Part shown: one piece after another, positions 10,850 through 54,692 of the stretch
Position numbering within the stretch: position 1 is the first letter of the stretch
How the letters are laid out: each line of letters starts with the position of its first letter
From: Rhodopirellula sp. P2
Lineage (GTDB): Bacteria > Planctomycetota > Planctomycetia > Pirellulales > Pirellulaceae
DNA: 64,000 nucleotides
Direction of reading: 5' to 3'
Assembly (NCBI RefSeq): GCF_028768465.1
Contig: NZ_CP118225.1
Span: 4,693,001 to 4,757,000, forward strand
Position numbers and translations under genes: made by a program
The notes under the pieces: model-generated
Seen by the model: only the letters and a program-made list of their open reading frames with translations
What the model was told of the DNA's origin: nothing
The model's database searches: none

Positions 10850-11040
10850 TAGGCAGGTCGGCAGGTCGGCAGGTCGGCAGGTCGGCAGGTCGGCAGGTCG
10901 GCAGGTCGGCAGGTCGGCAGGTCGGCAGGAATGATCGGGCAGAATCATGCGAGCCGTTTGGGCGTTCGCCCTGGTTGTGCGTGAAAACCGTGGCCAACGC
11001 TAACGGCTCACCTACCCGATGACACCTGCGTACCTGCTTA
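10850..11040. repeat. Short palindromic REP/MITE-like element, second copy
   Basis: A 191-bp relative of the 3586-4048 element without the inner module. The left arm has GAGCCGTTTGGGCGTTCGCC (10951-10970). The right arm (about 10988-11040) matches the other copy over about 50 bp and ends CCTGCGTACCTGCTTA. The final TTA is the stop codon, read on the minus strand, of the S9 peptidase gene, exactly as in the first copy. It lies between convergent genes. Its left end has been expanded into an octamer tandem repeat. Confidence 0.8.
10853..10929. repeat. Octamer microsatellite, GCAGGTCG repeated 9.6 times
   Basis: Nine perfect copies of GCAGGTCG plus GCAGG. It sits exactly where the sister element has GCAGGTACGCAGG, so it probably arose by slippage on the two GCAGG words of the element's terminus. 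It is intergenic and should not alter a protein. Confidence 0.9.
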
Positions 11041-14017: not shown

Positions 14018-14028
14018 CGCCAACCTTG

Positions 14029-14692
14029 TCCCCGGGCAGGAGCCTGGGAACGAGCCCCACCAACCTTGTTCCCAGGCTCCCGCCTGGGAACACACTGCCA
14101 CCGAGGCTCCCGCCTCACGAACCCCCAAACCGCAGGCAGAGCCTGCAAGACATCCCGTCCCCAGGCAGAGCCAGGGAACGAGCCCCACCAACCTTGTCCC
14201 CAGGCTCCCGCCTGGGAACACACTGCCACCGAGGCTCCGCCTCACGAACCCCAAACCGCAGGCAGAGCCTGCAAGACATCCCGTCCCCAGGCAGAGCCTG
14301 GGAACGAGCCTCACCAAACTTGTCCCCAGGCTCCGCCTGGGAACACACTGCCACCGAGGCTCCGCCTCACGAACCCCCAAAACCGCAGGCAGAGCCTGCA
14401 AGACATCCCGTCCCCAGGCAGAGCCTGGGAACGAGCCCCACCAAACTTGTCCCCAGGCTCCCGCCTGGGAACACACTGCCACCGAGGCTCCGCCTCACGA
14501 TCCCCTAAACCGCAGGCAGAGCCTGCAAGACATCCCGTCCCCAGGCAGAGCCTGGGAACGAGCCCCACCAAACTTGTTCCCAGGCTCCCGCCTGGGAACA
14601 CACTGCCACCGAGGCTCCGCCTCACGAACCCCAAACCGCAGGCAGAGCCTGCAAGACATCCCGTCCCCAGGCAGAGCCTGGGAACGAGCCCC
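14029..14692. repeat. Tandem array of ~127-bp palindrome-rich units
   Basis: The word GTCCCC(A/G)GGCAG recurs at 14029, 14157, 14283, 14410, 14537 and 14663, giving periods of 128, 126, 127, 127 and 126 bp and about 5.2 units. Each unit carries CCCAGGCAGAGCCTGGG, then CCCAGGCTCCGCCTGGG (the same palindrome reversed), CGAGGCTCCGCCTCACG and GCAGGCAGAGCCTGC. The first unit is the most diverged. Frames are open on both strands only because of the repeat composition. It lies between the convergent ACT and sulfatase genes, and an IS has landed at its right edge. Confidence 0.9.
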
Positions 14693-14735
14693 ACCACCGC
14701 GAAAAGGGGACGCCACCGCGAAAAGGGGACGGGGG

Positions 14736-39500: not shown

Positions 39501-41379
39501 GTCGAACGCATTGCTTGGAAAGCTGGAACGAATGGCGGCAACTGAATCGTCACCGGTCACGCGTCGTCACCTCGCGTCGTTTCTGCAACGCATCCCAGAA
39601 TCACAACGCCTCGGTCTTGCGAGTGGCTTGCTGAACCATGTCATCGACCAAAACGACCGCAACCTGCCTTGGTTGATTTGGTACGGGATCGAACCGGTCA
39701 TCGACGTTGACCCCGCTGGAGTGATGAGCGTGGTGTCCACTGGCAATTGGCAACCACTGCAACGGTTCGTGACTCGTCGCACGGCCACCACCCCCGAGGG
39801 TCGGCAAGCCTTGGTGGCATCCATCAGGAACAAGATTGAGGGATTGGACAAGGACGCCACCGTGAACAATCAATTCGACTGGATGCTGGAGGAGTTGTTG
39901 CAGTCGGCGCGCAGTCGTGGCGGGGTCGCGATGCCGGACGCATGGCCTCAGGTTTCACAACTGCTGCGGGAGAAAGCCTCGGCGACCAGCACAAAGGATT
40001 TGGCCGGAGCCTTGGCGATCCAGTTTGGAGACGCATCGGCTCTGCCCGAGTTACGGAAGATTCTGACTGATCCCGCCCAACTGGCTTCGTCTCGAATGGA
40101 GGCGTTGCGACTGCTCGCGCAAGCCAAAGATCCCGAGCTCGGCGAAATGTTGTTGACCTTGATCGACGATCGCGACATTGGCTCCCACGCCGTCCGCGGT
40201 CTCGCTTCGTATGACTCACCCAAAATCGCTCCGCTGCTGATCGAACGATTTCAAGCTTGGTCCCCGCAAAAGCAATCCGATGCGTTGGCAACCCTGACCT
40301 CACGGACCGACTCTGCCATTCAGTTGATCGCGGCAATGGAAGAAAACGTGATCCCACCAACAATCGTTCCGGCGTATGCGATCCGCAATGTGCTGTCGTT
40401 GCCGTTTGAAGACGACACAGCACGCAAGCGTTTGGAAGCTGCGTGGGGACGCATTGGAGCGACCAGTGAACAAGCCAAACAGAGGCACCAAAAGTACGCC
40501 GGGATGCTGACGCCTGCCAAGCTTGCGTCGGCCAACCGCACCGAAGGCAAGAAACTCTACGAGGTCAACTGTGGCAAATGCCATCGGCTGTTTGGCGAGG
40601 GCGAACCGATTGGCCCCGACCTCACCGGAGCCAACCGCAGCGATGTCAACTATTGGTTGGAAAACATCCTGCAACCCAATGCGGTGATCGGCAACGCTTA
40701 TCAAATGACCACGTTCTTGTTGGCCGACGGACGAGTCGTTTCCGGATTGGTTCGTTCTCGCAATGAAGACGCCGTCACGGTGCAAACGACCTCGGAGATT
40801 TCCGTGCTGCCACTCGAAGACGTCGAAATCGAAAAGCTTTCGGAGACCTCGTTGATGCCCGAGGGACAACTCGAACCGCTGACAGCCAACCAAGTCCGTG
40901 ACCTGTTTGGCTACCTGATGAGCCCCGGTCCTGCGTACACCCGCGAGTGGGCAATCGAAGCGGAAAGCCTGATTCGTTCCGCAGATGTCCAAGGCGGTCA
41001 AATCCAAGACCAAAACATGAAGCCATTCCACGATCAATGGTCGGCCGACAACCACCTTTGGTGGACCGGCGGCCAGGTGGGATCGACGTTGACGTTGACC
41101 GTGCCTCATCAGATCAACGGCCCCGCTGAAATCCAAATGCATCTGACGGGTGCGATTGATTACGCCACGTTGACGTTGAAACTCAACGAGCAACCCGAGA
41201 AGTCATTCGACGGATTTTCCCGCGACGTCAAAGTCATGCCCCCGATCACCTGGGACCGAGTCGAACTGTCGCCTGCAAAGCCGGTGACCATTCAAATCAA
41301 GATCACGGGCAAGAACGAACAGGCGATCGCACGTTGGATGGCCGGAATCGACACGATCTCGATCCGTCCACTGCACTGA
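36598..41379 (+). CDS. Giant secreted VCBS / dehydrogenase-propeller / HEAT / heme-binding CxxCH protein
   Basis: 1593 residues. A signal peptide (about 1-36, ending VVAQ) precedes FG-GAP/VCBS repeats with Ca-binding DxDGD loops (DLNGDGLND, DVNDDGHPD, DIDGDGRND, DFDGDGDSD, DVDGDGRRD, DINGDGRVD; about 55-420). Next comes the planctomycete membrane-bound-dehydrogenase propeller (about 465-850), then HEAT-like helices (about 880-1270). A single heme site CGKCH (Cys1325, Cys1328, His1329) sits in the PVC-type heme-binding domain, and a beta-sandwich closes the protein (about 1450-1593). This points to periplasmic oxidation of an unknown substrate with electron transfer to a c-type heme. Confidence 0.85.
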   Translation: MNLFAFMARPTSLSCSAILGCAALLLGLLASPVVAQQEPPRLEDTHVGWESQQISDQFFAEGSAVGDLNGDGLNDLVYGPVWFAGPDFQAQHALAEPNVVPVAGYSQHFFSHVCDVNDDGHPDVISIGFPGRNATLYINPGEIEFGADSPTWKSHIIAPRVSNESPAWVHLLPGGLPELVCARDRVYGYYTADDLDDPTQPWKWVAISEPGTAIEPFGHGLGVGDIDGDGRNDIIDRQHWWKHPDTDDSATKTKLWQRHSWIAQPYGGGGAQIHVHDFDGDGDSDLVTSKNAHGYGLAWFEQTAAGQFVPHEISGESSMSNPHGYATSQMHALEAIDVDGDGRRDIVTGKRYLAHAGKDPGGLQAPLVVWFRNVKSDRPGGIEFIPHIIHETSGVGVEVIATDINGDGRVDVLTGNKKGLTVHFQTDLSDVPQDKRRHVAERWRTPKLPQTEYATGLSPTESALHMNLPDGFEVDVIASEPELVQPIAMCFDDRGRIWMIEGNTYPTKAPEGEGKDRILILEDSDGDGSFETHRVFAEGLNLASGIEVGFGGVWIGAAPELLFYPDADRDDVPDAEPTVLLDGWGYQDTHETLNSFTWGMDGWLYGCHGVFTHSNVGKPGTAKADRTPLNAGVWRYHPVRHEFEVFAHGTSNPWGVDFNEDGDWFISACVIPHLFHLSHGGRYFRQAGQHFNPHTYDDIKTIADHLHYGDGTFQSANSANKVDRDLVRRTVATTSMVGGGHAHAGLTIYQADEFPAHYRGELFFHNLHGHRIVREHLETEGSGYIGRHRPDFMLSHDHEQIGVGIMQGPDGALYSSDWHDDQTCHHRDHEIWDRTNGRLFRIRYGDLQPYRFDLSTQSVDQLVDNLKHSNAYFVRQSQRILQERAAAGTLDRAQLASSLTAMVQSELPRRQRLQAVWTAWTSGLLSVERSRESNHVHVATDLATLLDDSDPVIRGWAVQLIGEGHPTLSNALLGKLERMAATESSPVTRRHLASFLQRIPESQRLGLASGLLNHVIDQNDRNLPWLIWYGIEPVIDVDPAGVMSVVSTGNWQPLQRFVTRRTATTPEGRQALVASIRNKIEGLDKDATVNNQFDWMLEELLQSARSRGGVAMPDAWPQVSQLLREKASATSTKDLAGALAIQFGDASALPELRKILTDPAQLASSRMEALRLLAQAKDPELGEMLLTLIDDRDIGSHAVRGLASYDSPKIAPLLIERFQAWSPQKQSDALATLTSRTDSAIQLIAAMEENVIPPTIVPAYAIRNVLSLPFEDDTARKRLEAAWGRIGATSEQAKQRHQKYAGMLTPAKLASANRTEGKKLYEVNCGKCHRLFGEGEPIGPDLTGANRSDVNYWLENILQPNAVIGNAYQMTTFLLADGRVVSGLVRSRNEDAVTVQTTSEISVLPLEDVEIEKLSETSLMPEGQLEPLTANQVRDLFGYLMSPGPAYTREWAIEAESLIRSADVQGGQIQDQNMKPFHDQWSADNHLWWTGGQVGSTLTLTVPHQINGPAEIQMHLTGAIDYATLTLKLNEQPEKSFDGFSRDVKVMPPITWDRVELSPAKPVTIQIKITGKNEQAIARWMAGIDTISIRPLH

Positions 41380-41428
41380 AACCGCCTCCCACTCGTCCCG
41401 GCCCCCATCACGCCCCGCGCCGAACCCC

Positions 41429-41925
41429 AACCGCGGCGAGCGCCGTGCGGCTCACAAACCAACGCCCAAGTGAGCCGATGGCCGTTAGGCCCGGTTATCA
41501 CCCACATCATCCCCCACAGCCCCAACCTTCCAACCAACAACGACCTCGCCACAGTCCCCGCACACAACCGCGGCGAACGCCGTGCGGCTCACAAACCAAC
41601 GCCCCCGTGAGCCGCAGGCCGTTAGGCCCGGTTATCACCCACATCATCCCCCACAGCCCCAACCTTCCAACCAACAACGACCTCGCCACAGTACCCGCAC
41701 ACAACCGCGGCGAGCGCCGTGCGGCTCACAAATCCACGCCCGAGTGAGCCGCAGGCCGTTAGGCCCGGTTATCGACCAAACTCCAAACCAACCCAACCTC
41801 CCAAGCCAGCGACCAACTCGCCCCCATCACTACCCAGGCCAACCGCGGCGAACGCCGTGCGGCTCACAAATCCACGCCCACGTGAGCCGCAGGCCGTTAG
41901 GCCCGGTTATCAACCAAACCTCCCA
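41429..41925. repeat. REP-like array, left block, four units at 137/138 bp
   Basis: The word TGCGGCTCAC recurs at 41446, 41583, 41720 and 41858. Each unit is a 68-bp imperfect hairpin: AACCGCGGC(G/T)AACGCCG, then TGCGGCTCAC, a ~14-base loop, GTGAGCCGCA, and GGCCGTTAGGCCCGGTT. Units are joined by two alternative spacers, one with CATCATCCCCCACAGCCCC and one with CTCCAAACCAACCCAACC. The block starts about 50 bp after the giant protein gene and ends at the transposase stop codon. Confidence 0.92.
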
Positions 41926-41930
41926 ACCAG

Positions 41931-42464
41931 TCACCCATCGCGTCCAACTCGATCTTGCGCCTCATCGACGTAGCGAACGACGCGTTCAAGTTCATCCTCT
42001 TGATCGATGAACTCGCAATCACCACCCGACGTCCAGACAGGACGCCCGATATAGACGGGCCAGCGTTCTCGCAACACGCGGGTGCAGTTTGCCTTGATTT
42101 GATTCAAAACCTTGCGTCCGGCCAGTCCGGTAGCCGTGACGACAACATGCACATGATTGGAACGCGGGTTGGCTCTCCATAGCTTCCAACCACAGTGGTC
42201 GCAGAGCCGCGTGAGTTCCTCCTTGATCGCATCACGTTGATCGGGTCGCAGCAACAGAACGTCGTGCTTGAGTCGGTCCCGATGCCATTGCTCAAGCCGT
42301 GGCTGCGGTGATTTGGCACCCTCTGTCCGCGACCGCCACCACCGCCGATCCCCCTGCAAAAAGGAGCCGTAGACCGTGAAGGTGATGAAAAAGGCGACTG
42401 GCTCGGAATTCACTTTGAAACCTTCCAGGGTCACATCATTGGCGACGACAACCGCTGCGCACAC
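41931..42464 (-). CDS. REP-associated tyrosine transposase (RAYT), Y1/HUH family
   Basis: 177 residues; a GTG at 42413 (before NSEPVAFF) would give 160 and fits the family better. Y1_Tnp features: FFITFTVYGSFLQGD (family W/P-x-FIT-x-R-x-YG-x-WL-x-GD), HUH motif SNHVHVVV with His104 and His106, and candidate nucleophile Tyr165 in VVRYVDEAQ. Such enzymes nick single-stranded DNA at REP hairpins and are thought to spread REPs. It is framed by REP hairpins at both sides, four left and six right, in the gap between two convergent genes. No second transposon gene is present. Confidence 0.88.
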   Translation of the reverse strand: MCAAVVVANDVTLEGFKVNSEPVAFFITFTVYGSFLQGDRRWWRSRTEGAKSPQPRLEQWHRDRLKHDVLLLRPDQRDAIKEELTRLCDHCGWKLWRANPRSNHVHVVVTATGLAGRKVLNQIKANCTRVLRERWPVYIGRPVWTSGGDCEFIDQEDELERVVRYVDEAQDRVGRDG

Positions 42465-42582
42465 AGATTCGCCTGCAGTCCCAGCGCCCGGCCGAAATGA
42501 TCACGAAGCACCGACGCATGGCCATTGTTCGCGCAACGAAACGCATTCGGCATCAGACAAGTACCTGACGAACATCAAGGAT

Positions 42583-43330
42583 ATCGCCACAGTACCCGCA
42601 CACAACCGCGGCGAGCGCCGTGCGGCTCACAAACCAACGCCGACGTGAGCCGCAGGCCGTTAGGCCCGGTTATCAACCACATCATCCCCCACAGCCCCAA
42701 CCCTCCAGCCAACAACGACCTCGCCACAGTACCCGCACACAACCGCGGCGAACGCCGTGCGGTTCACAAATCCACGCCCAAGTGAGCCGATGGCCGTTAG
42801 GCCCGGTTACCAACCACATCATCCCACACAGCCCCAACCTTCCAACCAACAACGACCTCGCCACGGTACCCGCACGCAACCGCGGCTAACGCCGTGCGGC
42901 TCACAAACCAACGCCCAAGTGAGCCGCAGGCCGTTAGGCCCGGTTACCACCCAAACTCCAAACCAACCCAACCTCCCAAGCGAGCGACCAACTCGCCCCC
43001 ATCGCCCCCCAGGCCAACCGCGGCTAACGCCGTGCGGCTCACAAACCAACGCCCAAGTGAGCCGCAGGCCGTTAGGCCCGGTTACCAACCACATCATCCC
43101 CCACAGCCCCAACCTTCCAACCAACAACGACCTCGCCACAGTACCCGCACACAACCGCGGCGAGCGCCGTGCGGCTCACAAACCAACGCCCAAGTGAGCC
43201 GCAGGCCGTTAGGCCCGGTTATCAACCAAACTCCAAACCAACCCAACCTCCCAAGCGAGCGACCAACTCGCCCCCATCGCCCCCCATGCCAACCGCGGCG
43301 AACGCCGTGCGGCTCACAAATCCAACGCCG
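42583..43330. repeat. REP-like array, right block, six units at 137/138 bp
   Basis: TGCGG(C/T)TCAC occurs at 42621, 42758, 42895, 43033, 43170 and 43308, with steps of 137, 137, 138, 137 and 138 bp. Spacer order is a, a, b, a, b; the left block has a, a, b. Variants GCGGCTAACGCC and GCGGCGAACGCC alternate. The last unit lacks its right arm and degrades 40 bp before the SMP-30-like gene. It is in the same orientation as the left block. Confidence 0.92.
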
Positions 43331-52884: not shown

Positions 52885-53530
52885 CTCTGTCGCCCCATTC
52901 GGGGCTGCTCATCAAGCGAGGAACATGGACCGGGGCCTCACGGCCCCGGCAATGGTTCTGCCGGCCCTATCGGGCCTTGCCAAAGGATGAACAACACCGC
53001 ATCCAAGTCGCCACCCCATCCAGCGGCCAGCGGCTGCCCCAGCACTCTGCCCAGCGGCTCACCATCACTCCCCAACACTGGTTGATATCCCGTCCACGCC
53101 CCAGGCCTGAAAGGCCGACACAGCCTTTGCCGGGGGCGTCAGTCCCCGGTTCCCTGCCCCCCCTAACACCCGCCAAGCCCTGAAGGGGCGACAGAGATCG
53201 ATAATGGCGATTTCTCTGTCGCCCCTTTCGGGGCTGCCCATCAAGCGAGGAACATGCACCGGGGCCTCACGGCCCCGGCAATGGTTCTGCCGGCCCTACC
53301 GGGCCTAGCCAGAGGATGAACAACACCGCGTCCAAGTCGCCAACCCATCCAGCGGCCATCGGCTGCCCCAGCACTCTGCCCAGCGGCTCACCATCACTCC
53401 CCAACACTGGTTGATATCCCGTCCACGCCCCAGGCCTGAAAGGCCGACACAGCCTTTGCCGGGGGCGCCAGTCCCCGGTTCCCTGCCTCCCTAACACCCA
53501 CCAAGCCCTGAAGGGGCGACAGAGATGACA
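52885..53530. repeat. Palindrome-rich repeat cluster, two units of 329 bp
   Basis: CTCTGTCGCCCC starts at 52885 and 53214. Each unit carries GCCCC(T)TTTCGGGGC, ACCGGGGCCTCACGGCCCCGG, GCCGGCCCTA(C/T)CGGGCC, GCCTGAAAGGC and CCGGGGGCG(T/C)CAGTCCCCGG. At the unit junction is an inverted pair CGACAGAGA ... TCTCTGTCG. Units are about 95% alike. The cluster starts 6 bp after the DTW stop and ends 66 bp before the transposase stop. Confidence 0.9.
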
Positions 53531-53595
53531 GTCTCTCCAGATCCCCAATTGAGAATGCCAACCACAGAGGAATTTCAAACAGGCCAAACCTGCAA

Positions 53596-54045
53596 TCAGT
53601 CAAAGACATATCGCTCATCAAACTCAACTTCGTGCTTCAACAACAACTGCAAATACTCCTCTTCAAAGGTTCTCTTCCGATGATGTTCCATCTGCCCACC
53701 GATGTAGCGACTCACCGCATCCTTGTTGGATGGACTGACTGAAAATGCTCCAAAGCCATCCTGCCACCCGAAAGGAACTCCAAGAGCTTTTCCTTCGTTC
53801 AGGTGTTTGCTCGTATTGGATTTAATCTTGCCGACAAAATCGGAGACAGCCACACGAGCCGGGATCCGAACGAGCAAGTGAGCATGGTCGTAGTAACCGC
53901 CCACCTCCAACGGGAAGCCATCCAACCGTTTGCACACACCAGCGATGTAGGAGAACACATCCTCGCGAATCGAATCATTCAAAAGTCGCTTGCGACGCTT
54001 GGTACTGAACACAATGTGGTAGAGAAGCTGCTGATGAGTTGACAT
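53596..54045 (-). CDS. IS200/IS605-type Y1 (HUH) transposase
   Basis: 149 residues, full TnpA length. Features: LLYHIVFSTKRRK at the N-terminus, HUH motif YYDHAHLLVRI (His54, His56), and nucleophile Tyr114 in VSRYIGGQMEHHRKRTF, with the Gln and two His that typify IS200. It would cleave single-stranded DNA at a hairpin. No tnpB is adjacent. Instead of normal IS200 ends, it is flanked on both sides by the 329-bp palindrome-rich repeats, between convergent genes. Unrelated in detail to the RAYT at 41931-42464. Confidence 0.9.
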   Translation of the reverse strand: MSTHQQLLYHIVFSTKRRKRLLNDSIREDVFSYIAGVCKRLDGFPLEVGGYYDHAHLLVRIPARVAVSDFVGKIKSNTSKHLNEGKALGVPFGWQDGFGAFSVSPSNKDAVSRYIGGQMEHHRKRTFEEEYLQLLLKHEVEFDERYVFD

Positions 54046-54060
54046 GGCTGCTCCAAGGAG

Positions 54061-54692
54061 TTTCTCTAGCGTCCCTTTCGGGGCTGCTCATCTCGCAAGG
54101 CAAATGGTCCGGCCCCGGCAAAGGTTTCCCCAGCCCAGTCGGACCTTGTATCGCGAATCGCTGTGTCTTGATCTTACACATCTCGGCCCAAGCATGTTGC
54201 GAACCTCCCATGGATCTTCAGACATGAAGGGCTGGTAACATTCCAACCTGGAACACTTTCCAATCACCCACTACTCACCTCAGCACTCAGGCCTGAAAGG
54301 CCGACACAGCCTTTGCCGGGGGCGTCAGTCCCCGGTGGTTGAAGCCCCATCTCCACCAAGCCCCGAAGGGGTGACAGAGATCGATAATGGCGATTTCTCT
54401 GTCGCCCCTTTCGGGGCTGCCCATCAAGCGAGGAACATGGACCGGGGCCTCACGGCCCCGGCAATGGTTCTGCCGGCCCTACCGGGCCTTGCCAGAGGAT
54501 GAACAACACCGCGTCCAAGTCGCCAACCCATCCAGCGGCCATCGGCTGCCCCAGCACTCTGCCCAGCGGCTCACCATCACTCCCCAACACTGGTTGATAT
54601 CCTGCCCACGCCCCAGGCCTGAAAGGCCGACACAGCCTTTGCCGGGGACGTCAGTCCCCGGTGGTTGAAGACCCCATCTCCGCCAACCCCCG
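54061..54692. repeat. Palindrome-rich repeat cluster, right of the Y1 transposase
   Basis: Same family as 52885-53530. A degraded head lies at 54061-54140, a tail part at about 54282-54380 (CAGGCCTGAAAGGCCG to the CGACAGAGA junction), and a nearly complete unit at 54397-54692. The unit spacing is disturbed, unlike the left side. It ends 11 bp before the RND gene stop. Confidence 0.85.

Follow-up and report, generated by a model that had tools for sequence, protein, structure and literature searches.

The window analysed here is a 64,000-nucleotide stretch (positions 4693001–4757000) of the 7,291,416-base, single-contig genome of Rhodopirellula sp. P2 (G000), and it holds an array of 19 REPs arranged in 9.5 doublets, nine full and one half, around a gene for a Y1 (HUH) transposase. 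The gene lies at 41931..42464 on the minus strand and encodes 177 residues, its identity being supported by a PF01797 match, catalytic motifs and an AlphaFold2 model. Convergent genes, whose ends fall at 41379 and 43370, flank the array and the transposase gene. Each unit consists of two oppositely oriented REPs, the first on the minus strand and the second on the plus strand, with their GTGAG ends facing inward across 14 nt. Specifically, unit 1 (41429..41496; REPs 41429–41455 and 41470–41496) and unit 2 (41566..41633; 41566–41592 and 41607–41633) are each followed by a spacer of type a, and unit 3 (41703..41770; 41703–41729 and 41744–41770) by a spacer of type b. The transposase gene sits in the fourth spacer, that of unit 4 (41841..41908; 41841–41867 and 41882–41908), which it breaks after approximately 22 nt. 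The array restarts on the plus strand with the 20-nt right-hand rest of spacer a (42584..42603), followed by unit 5 (42604..42671; 42604–42630 and 42645–42671) and unit 6 (42741..42808; 42741–42767 and 42782–42808), both with spacer a, unit 7 (42878..42945; 42878–42904 and 42919–42945) with spacer b, unit 8 (43016..43083; 43016–43042 and 43057–43083) with spacer a, and unit 9 (43153..43220; 43153–43179 and 43194–43220) with spacer b. The array ends with a half unit 10, a single left-arm REP at 43291..43317 on the minus strand.

The left-arm REP starts obtained from a mismatch scan give unit steps of 137, 137 and 138 bp to the left of the gene and 137, 137, 138, 137 and 138 bp to the right, and TRF reports 137-bp arrays at 41428–41916 (score 683) and 42584–43329 (score 956). 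The original prediction of a RAYT-type Y1 transposase within a REP array is borne out, as are the 137/138-bp pitch and the a,a,b | a,a,b,a,b succession of spacers, which the sequences confirm. Its description of ten hairpin units in one orientation holds for the regular spacing; the supposed single hairpins are opposed REP pairs, and the tenth unit is a half. Relative to unit 2, identity is 92–96% for units of type a and, over the aligned part only, 81–83% for those of type b. Capture of rayt 3′ ends in BIMEs has been described by Nunvar (PMC2817692). Here, an origin of the spacers in the transposase gene was considered and rejected, as the coding end scored no better than shuffles against six spacers (p 0.13–0.85), and spacer-like sequence near the gene is confined to the 22–26 nt outside it. 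Elsewhere in the window, a perfect octamer repeat, GGCAGGTC, is present in 9.8 copies at 10852–10929.

Each REP spans 27 nt and comprises the foot GTGA, a stem with a 2-nt bulge, a loop and a TT tail. With up to two mismatches allowed, the REP pattern has 130 matches in the 7.29-Mb genome versus none for the reversed pattern, so the copies are not due to chance. Among 69 distinct REPs, stem pair 11/22 is standard in 93% (shuffled mean 43%) and stem pair 13/20 in 100% (shuffled mean 56%), with 0 of 2000 shuffles as high in either case, whereas at four position pairs outside the stem pairing was no higher than in the shuffles. The two stem pairs constitute the free covariation test, since most of the remaining stem positions are prescribed by the pattern used for searching, and they change in a compensatory way, which shows that the hairpin is under pairing constraint. 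The repeats also have the features by which REPs and BIMEs are defined, namely inverted palindrome pairs that are regularly spaced, extragenic and present in many genomic copies, and they depart from the GT[AG]G definition of a REP in having the foot GTGA, followed by GCCG. Reading a cleavage dinucleotide from conserved flanks was attempted and abandoned: dispersed REPs lie within larger elements, so that flanks are conserved on both sides, and these flanks differ between G000 and its relative G003. One such dispersed element of G003 (L308–L372), aligned in 42 copies, carries two REPs whose feet point outward, and its outer ends match, CTGTTGATTTA/TAAATCAACAG.

With respect to the transposase itself, the protein was read from a GTG start; because homologue matches mostly begin near residue 19–20, translation may actually start at the GTG of codon 18. 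It contains the HUH motif NHVH (103–106), W144–T145, the catalytic Y165 within YVDEAQ and the foot-associated residues C150, F152 and D154, and the HUH histidines and Y165 are invariant across nine aligned proteins. It scores 34.2 bits against PF01797 (Y1_Tnp; gathering cut-off 23), 14.3 bits against the RAYT/TnpA_REP model NF047646 (curated cut-off 80) and 25.2 bits against the IS200/IS605 model NF033573 (curated cut-off 55). Judged by its scores under both NCBIfam cut-offs, the enzyme is not a canonical RAYT. A phmmer search of structures with the protein returned nothing relevant, and a profile search retrieved the IS200-type transposase 2f4f (E 0.013). The AlphaFold2 model (mean pLDDT 78.4) matches the ISDra2 and IS608 transposases and, at E 1.1e-3, E. 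coli RayT (4er8). The protein shows the motifs that PMC6006769 lists for class 3 TnpA_Y1 (NHVH, W[TA], Y-x4-Q and a length of about 178 residues). Hairpins are likewise present, with the foot GTGA here and ATYA in relatives in place of the published CnGA, and we use the label class-3-like because of this difference. CAGA, CGGA and ACGA are the most frequent feet at distant loci alone, for example L242 and L244–L246. Among class-3-like paralogues, L056, L057, L107 and L108 carry NHAH or NHCH; those with NHCH lack the Tyr motif that was searched for and are perhaps inactive. The window also holds a second Y1 gene, of IS200 type (match 53692–54033 on the minus strand, 71 bits to NF033573), in a region (52885–54600) where it lies between palindrome-rich repeats of approximately 329 bp (380 bp, 94% identity left versus right).

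A search of G000 with the repeat unit gave 42 matches. In addition to the array in the window (array A), the genome has array B at 3131409–3133749, the longest, in which a 136-bp unit with a related spacer is repeated 17.3 times, as well as array C, with a 186-bp pitch from 5942215, and a further 241-bp array near 4288119. Units 4, 5 and 6 of array B are identical to units 8, 9 and 10, and units group by array and by species (6 changes versus a shuffled mean of 15.7; 0 of 200 shuffles as low), the G000 units of arrays A and B falling on separate branches. The identical blocks and the clustering by array together show that the arrays are amplified locally, by block duplication of units. A Y1 family search of G000 found no such gene near array B, that is, between 2259565 and 4734961, so array growth needs no transposase. 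The proposal that the unit is duplicated whole, spacer included, stands; the suggestion that the enzyme does the duplicating is not supported. In its explicit form, the latter would have the enzyme copy the entire 137-bp unit, through a single-stranded or rolling circle, and insert it beside existing units. REPs do bound the unit, the pitch is nearly constant, and related enzymes cleave and rejoin at REPs (Corneloup 2021, PMC8266576). However, the identical multi-unit blocks of array B point to recombination between units, the units of arrays A and B occupy separate branches, and pitch and spacer are specific to each locus, which leaves this route highly improbable.

Another explanation takes the array to be an ordinary minisatellite, enlarged by slippage or unequal crossing-over, with the transposase as a bystander. 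Array B amplifies by exact multi-unit blocks without a nearby Y1 gene, and at 14028–14696 the window contains 5.3 copies of a 127-bp palindromic unit, again with no Y1 gene near. The locus in related genomes also bears on this point. The downstream neighbour protein is present in 13 of 13 genomes searched, and the upstream neighbour adjoins it in G000 and in five of nine other genomes with longer stretches (G009, G004, G006, G003 and G011). Both array and gene are present in G000 and its sister G009, whose array has eight right-arm REPs, three on one side and five on the other, at a pitch of 133–135 bp. G003 and G006 hold a syntenic array, with units at a 130-bp pitch, from which the gene is absent, as a bystander would allow; tblastn found no gene remnant at this site in either genome (best E 0.48 and 0.59), and a script scan of the site in G004 and G011 found no such REPs. 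The neighbour-protein tree does not fix the order of gene gain and loss well, and our leaning, short of a claim, is that the common ancestor of G000 and G009 acquired the gene here.

Against the transposase being a bystander stands the recurrence of this arrangement around other Y1 genes. PF01797 has 13 matches in G000, corresponding to 11 places when a tandem triplet is counted once; the triplet (L052, 6437942–6440280) is an IS200-type gene in three tandem copies approximately 1 kb apart with equal scores. Direct repeats lie on both sides within 2 kb at 10 of the 11 places when ORF ends are used (L055, at 6312665, has none) and also at 10 when domain-match ends are used instead, with L059 as the exception, and eight of the 11 have a TRF array of period at least 60 within 1.5 kb. 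A scan of named genomes gave 118 relatives, of which 80 were kept; pooled with the other loci and with three duplicates dropped, they made up 101 distinct class-3-like loci from 104, and flanks of 1.5 kb or more are available on either side for 74 of these. At 45 of the 74 loci, direct repeats lie on both sides, versus 3 of 220 random 500-bp positions in G000, a ratio to be read as indicative because the controls were drawn from a single genome and the loci span many. The corresponding counts are 33/74 versus 1/220 for inverted repeats on both sides, 18/74 versus 11/220 for a TRF array, and 15/74 versus 1/220 for a TRF array together with a straddling direct repeat of at least 60 bp. Arrays occur on both sides of the gene at L097 (94 bp; 11.2 and 8.6 copies), L103 (90 bp; 5.9 and 4.5 copies), L196, L185, L188 and L197, the last having a short flank that places it outside the 74. 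This suggests that Planctomycetes commonly carry Y1 genes within tandem arrays made up of the genes' own hairpins. Given these straddling repeats, and a foot type that follows the enzyme tree as described below, we consider a minisatellite with a bystander transposase rather improbable.

To relate foot to enzyme, loci were labelled by at least two copies of GTGAGCCG or AT[CT]AGCCG within 800 nt. Forty-three class-3-like loci passed, 42 of them labelled and one mixed, and 36 of the 42 show a single kind only. On a transposase tree of 41 rows, with one short sequence left out, the label changes four times versus a shuffled mean of 11.9, and 0 of 500 shuffles were as low; the proteins of the window and of G009, both GTGA, pair with each other within a 26-row branch in which 24 rows are ATYA. 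Genome-wide exact counts of GTGA and ATYA REPs are 78:2 in G000, 60:0 in G009, 6:28 in G004, 2:62 in G010, 10:74 in G003, 3:33 in G006, 0:22 in G012 and 0:11 in G005. The other five genomes have no exact match to either pattern, including G007, which has a RAYT at 54% identity that is ATYA-labelled. No relative of the window RAYT above 37% identity was found in G003, G006, G012 or G005. On whether the repeat is equally abundant in relatives lacking the RAYT, the point raised by the original prediction, the answer is thus divided: GTGA REPs are far from equally common in these four genomes, and ATYA REPs are common there. Since REPs are abundant in genomes where no close RAYT was found, they outlive or precede an enzyme.

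A comparison of G000 with G003 allowed foot changes to be followed at shared sites. Flanks were compared, with REPs masked, for subsets of 39 G000 and 68 G003 sites (35 and 68 with a REP by the script's pattern); nine site pairs had at least 300 aligned bases, of which five were counted as the same site and four (330–587 bases, weak or scattered) were set aside as repeats. In the syntenic arrays A and C, the right-arm foot is GTGA in G000 and ATCA in G003. The stem is kept, as is the pitch of array C, and foot positions 1 and 3 differ in every matched right-arm REP (25 versus 7, no overlap), the right-arm matching pattern fixing most of the stem and leaving the foot free. In G003 and G006, the left-arm REPs of array A (three matched) read ATGA or TTGA, neither type. 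The shared site L301/L372 carries different REP types. The foot is unchanged at two of the five sites shared with G003: a 188-bp array, L303 (G000:C1:1189100–1191500) and L141 (G003), has GTTA in both genomes, in 2 versus 4 copies, and one single site has GTGA in both. Most of the dispersed REP population seems to have been replaced rather than converted, because the two species carry their dispersed REPs in different element families (25 and 42 copies aligned).

The foot difference could instead reflect lineage history, either the sorting of mixed REP pools or separate horizontal arrivals of RAYTs and REPs, with no co-adaptation involved. GTGA REPs at low number in G003 (10), the single site with GTGA in both species and the small number of independent contrasts all favour such a history. 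It accounts poorly for two syntenic arrays that share a stem and whose matched right-arm copies all differ at foot positions 1 and 3, or for the C/I-x-F/I-x-D type residues shared by GTGA loci on separate branches, and we regard it as unlikely while still giving it appreciable weight.

Those residues were identified from the alignment, where the best separators of foot type among 155 columns are 152, 154 and 150 (overlap 0.11, 0.11 and 0.12; next 0.22). In the AlphaFold2 model they alternate along a predicted strand (149–153) and just past it. Trp150 occurs in 21 of 26 ATYA rows, the exceptions being L199, L201, L206, L180 and L174 (Tyr), and in none of 14 GTGA rows (Fisher 5e-7, uncorrected for kinship, one X row left out); among pure labels with at least three feet, 28 of 30 agree. 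Four independent pairs gave approximately 1.8 concordant and no discordant for residue 150 (sign test p 0.5), which is not significant because independent origins are too few. The distance from W to the catalytic Y is 21 in both the window protein (144–165) and E. coli RayT (94–115), which aligns residues 150 and 154 with 100 and 104 of the latter, a mapping based on this spacing rather than on superposition, as hhalign gave no usable alignment. According to PMC8266576, Q95, D100 and R104 are among the E. coli RayT residues contacting GTAG; residue 100 is E in the sequence used here. G000 encodes another class-3-like protein (5385532), whose triad is IFD and which might likewise act on GTGA REPs, and G009 gave one other match, L106.

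These comparisons with relatives suggest that the REP recognition tag switched together with three enzyme residues, and a single face of the strand that carries 150, 152 and 154 probably reads the foot. A fuller version, in which class-3-like Y1 enzymes read the foot with one β-strand face (W-x-C-x-N for AT[CT]A, C/I-x-F/I-x-D for GTGA), and a triad change in the G000/G009 ancestor was followed by foot replacement in the entire REP population, with tandem arrays changed in place and stems preserved, is put forward tentatively, our confidence in it being somewhat below even. The RAYT groups that have been studied well vary in the palindrome and keep an almost constant tetranucleotide; were this version true, the foot would vary and the palindrome would be kept, the reverse of that pattern.

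Taken together, the most probable explanation, which we favour with fair confidence, is that the locus is a class-3-like TnpA_Y1 REPtron within a BIME-like array of its own REP doublets, in which the enzyme seeds foot-matched REPs, the array grows by recombination and the foot has followed a change in the enzyme. The enzyme would recognise single-stranded REPs by the hairpin and its 4-nt foot, GTGA here and ATYA in most relatives. By analogy with its family, it would cleave and rejoin next to a foot-matched hairpin, and would thereby seed and maintain REPs bearing its own foot. Growth of the 137-bp unit would proceed mainly by homologous misalignment between units, through unequal exchange or slippage, perhaps prompted by nicks that the enzyme makes. 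With a change at residues 150, 152 and 154 in the G000/G009 ancestor, the REPs, including those of the syntenic arrays, would have gained the new foot. The locus bears on how RAYTs and REPs co-evolve and on how an enzyme chooses its hairpins. Natural enzyme pairs with different feet, together with three candidate residues, make a foot-recognition rule testable, and syntenic arrays in which the foot differs and the stem is the same would be a record of a repeat population following its enzyme.

A REPtron in a BIME-like tandem array is of a kind already in print; new here are the recurrence of the gene-in-repeats architecture, the local growth of arrays by duplicated blocks, the agreement of foot type with the transposase tree, the altered foot on a kept stem at two syntenic arrays and the three residues that best separate the foot types. 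A search for 'RAYT' with 'Rhodopirellula' gave no match in the open-access literature; PMC3733652 attributes to R. baltica a 'plethora' of genes for tyrosine transposases that are accompanied by flanking repeats. The notion that few REPs flank the RAYT genes in print is contradicted by two papers. Nunvar 2010 (PMC2817692) finds BIMEs directly associated with one third of RAYTs and places the E. coli rayt between BIME-2 on both sides, and Bertels and Rainey 2011 (PMC3116915) describe tandem REPIN clusters with flanking sequence, one adjoining each of three RAYTs. Related literature includes PMC3686654 and PMC6749651.

With IS200/IS605 elements (IS608, ISDra2), the locus shares the fold and catalytic layout; unlike them, its protein falls below the NCBIfam IS200 cut-off, and no fixed-end cassette was seen around the gene. 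With the E. coli rayT BIME-2/REPtron (PMC2817692 and PMC8266576), it shares a Y1 HUH gene between tandem inverted REP pairs and a bulged hairpin with a 5′ tetranucleotide. It differs in its foot (GTGA versus GTAG), in a protein far below the RAYT model, and in having more units, a fixed pitch and two spacers. REP doublets repeated with flanking sequence beside a RAYT are likewise shared with the REPIN clusters of P. fluorescens SBW25, where the largest tandem cluster comprises four REPINs and one REP (PMC3116915), versus 9.5 doublets here and 17.3 units at array B. Finally, beyond the motif set and length discussed above, the locus has in common with class 3 TnpA_Y1, as set out in Quentin 2018 (PMC6006769), its occurrence in Planctomycetes and the hairpins that flank the gene, and differs from that class in the foot that those hairpins carry.
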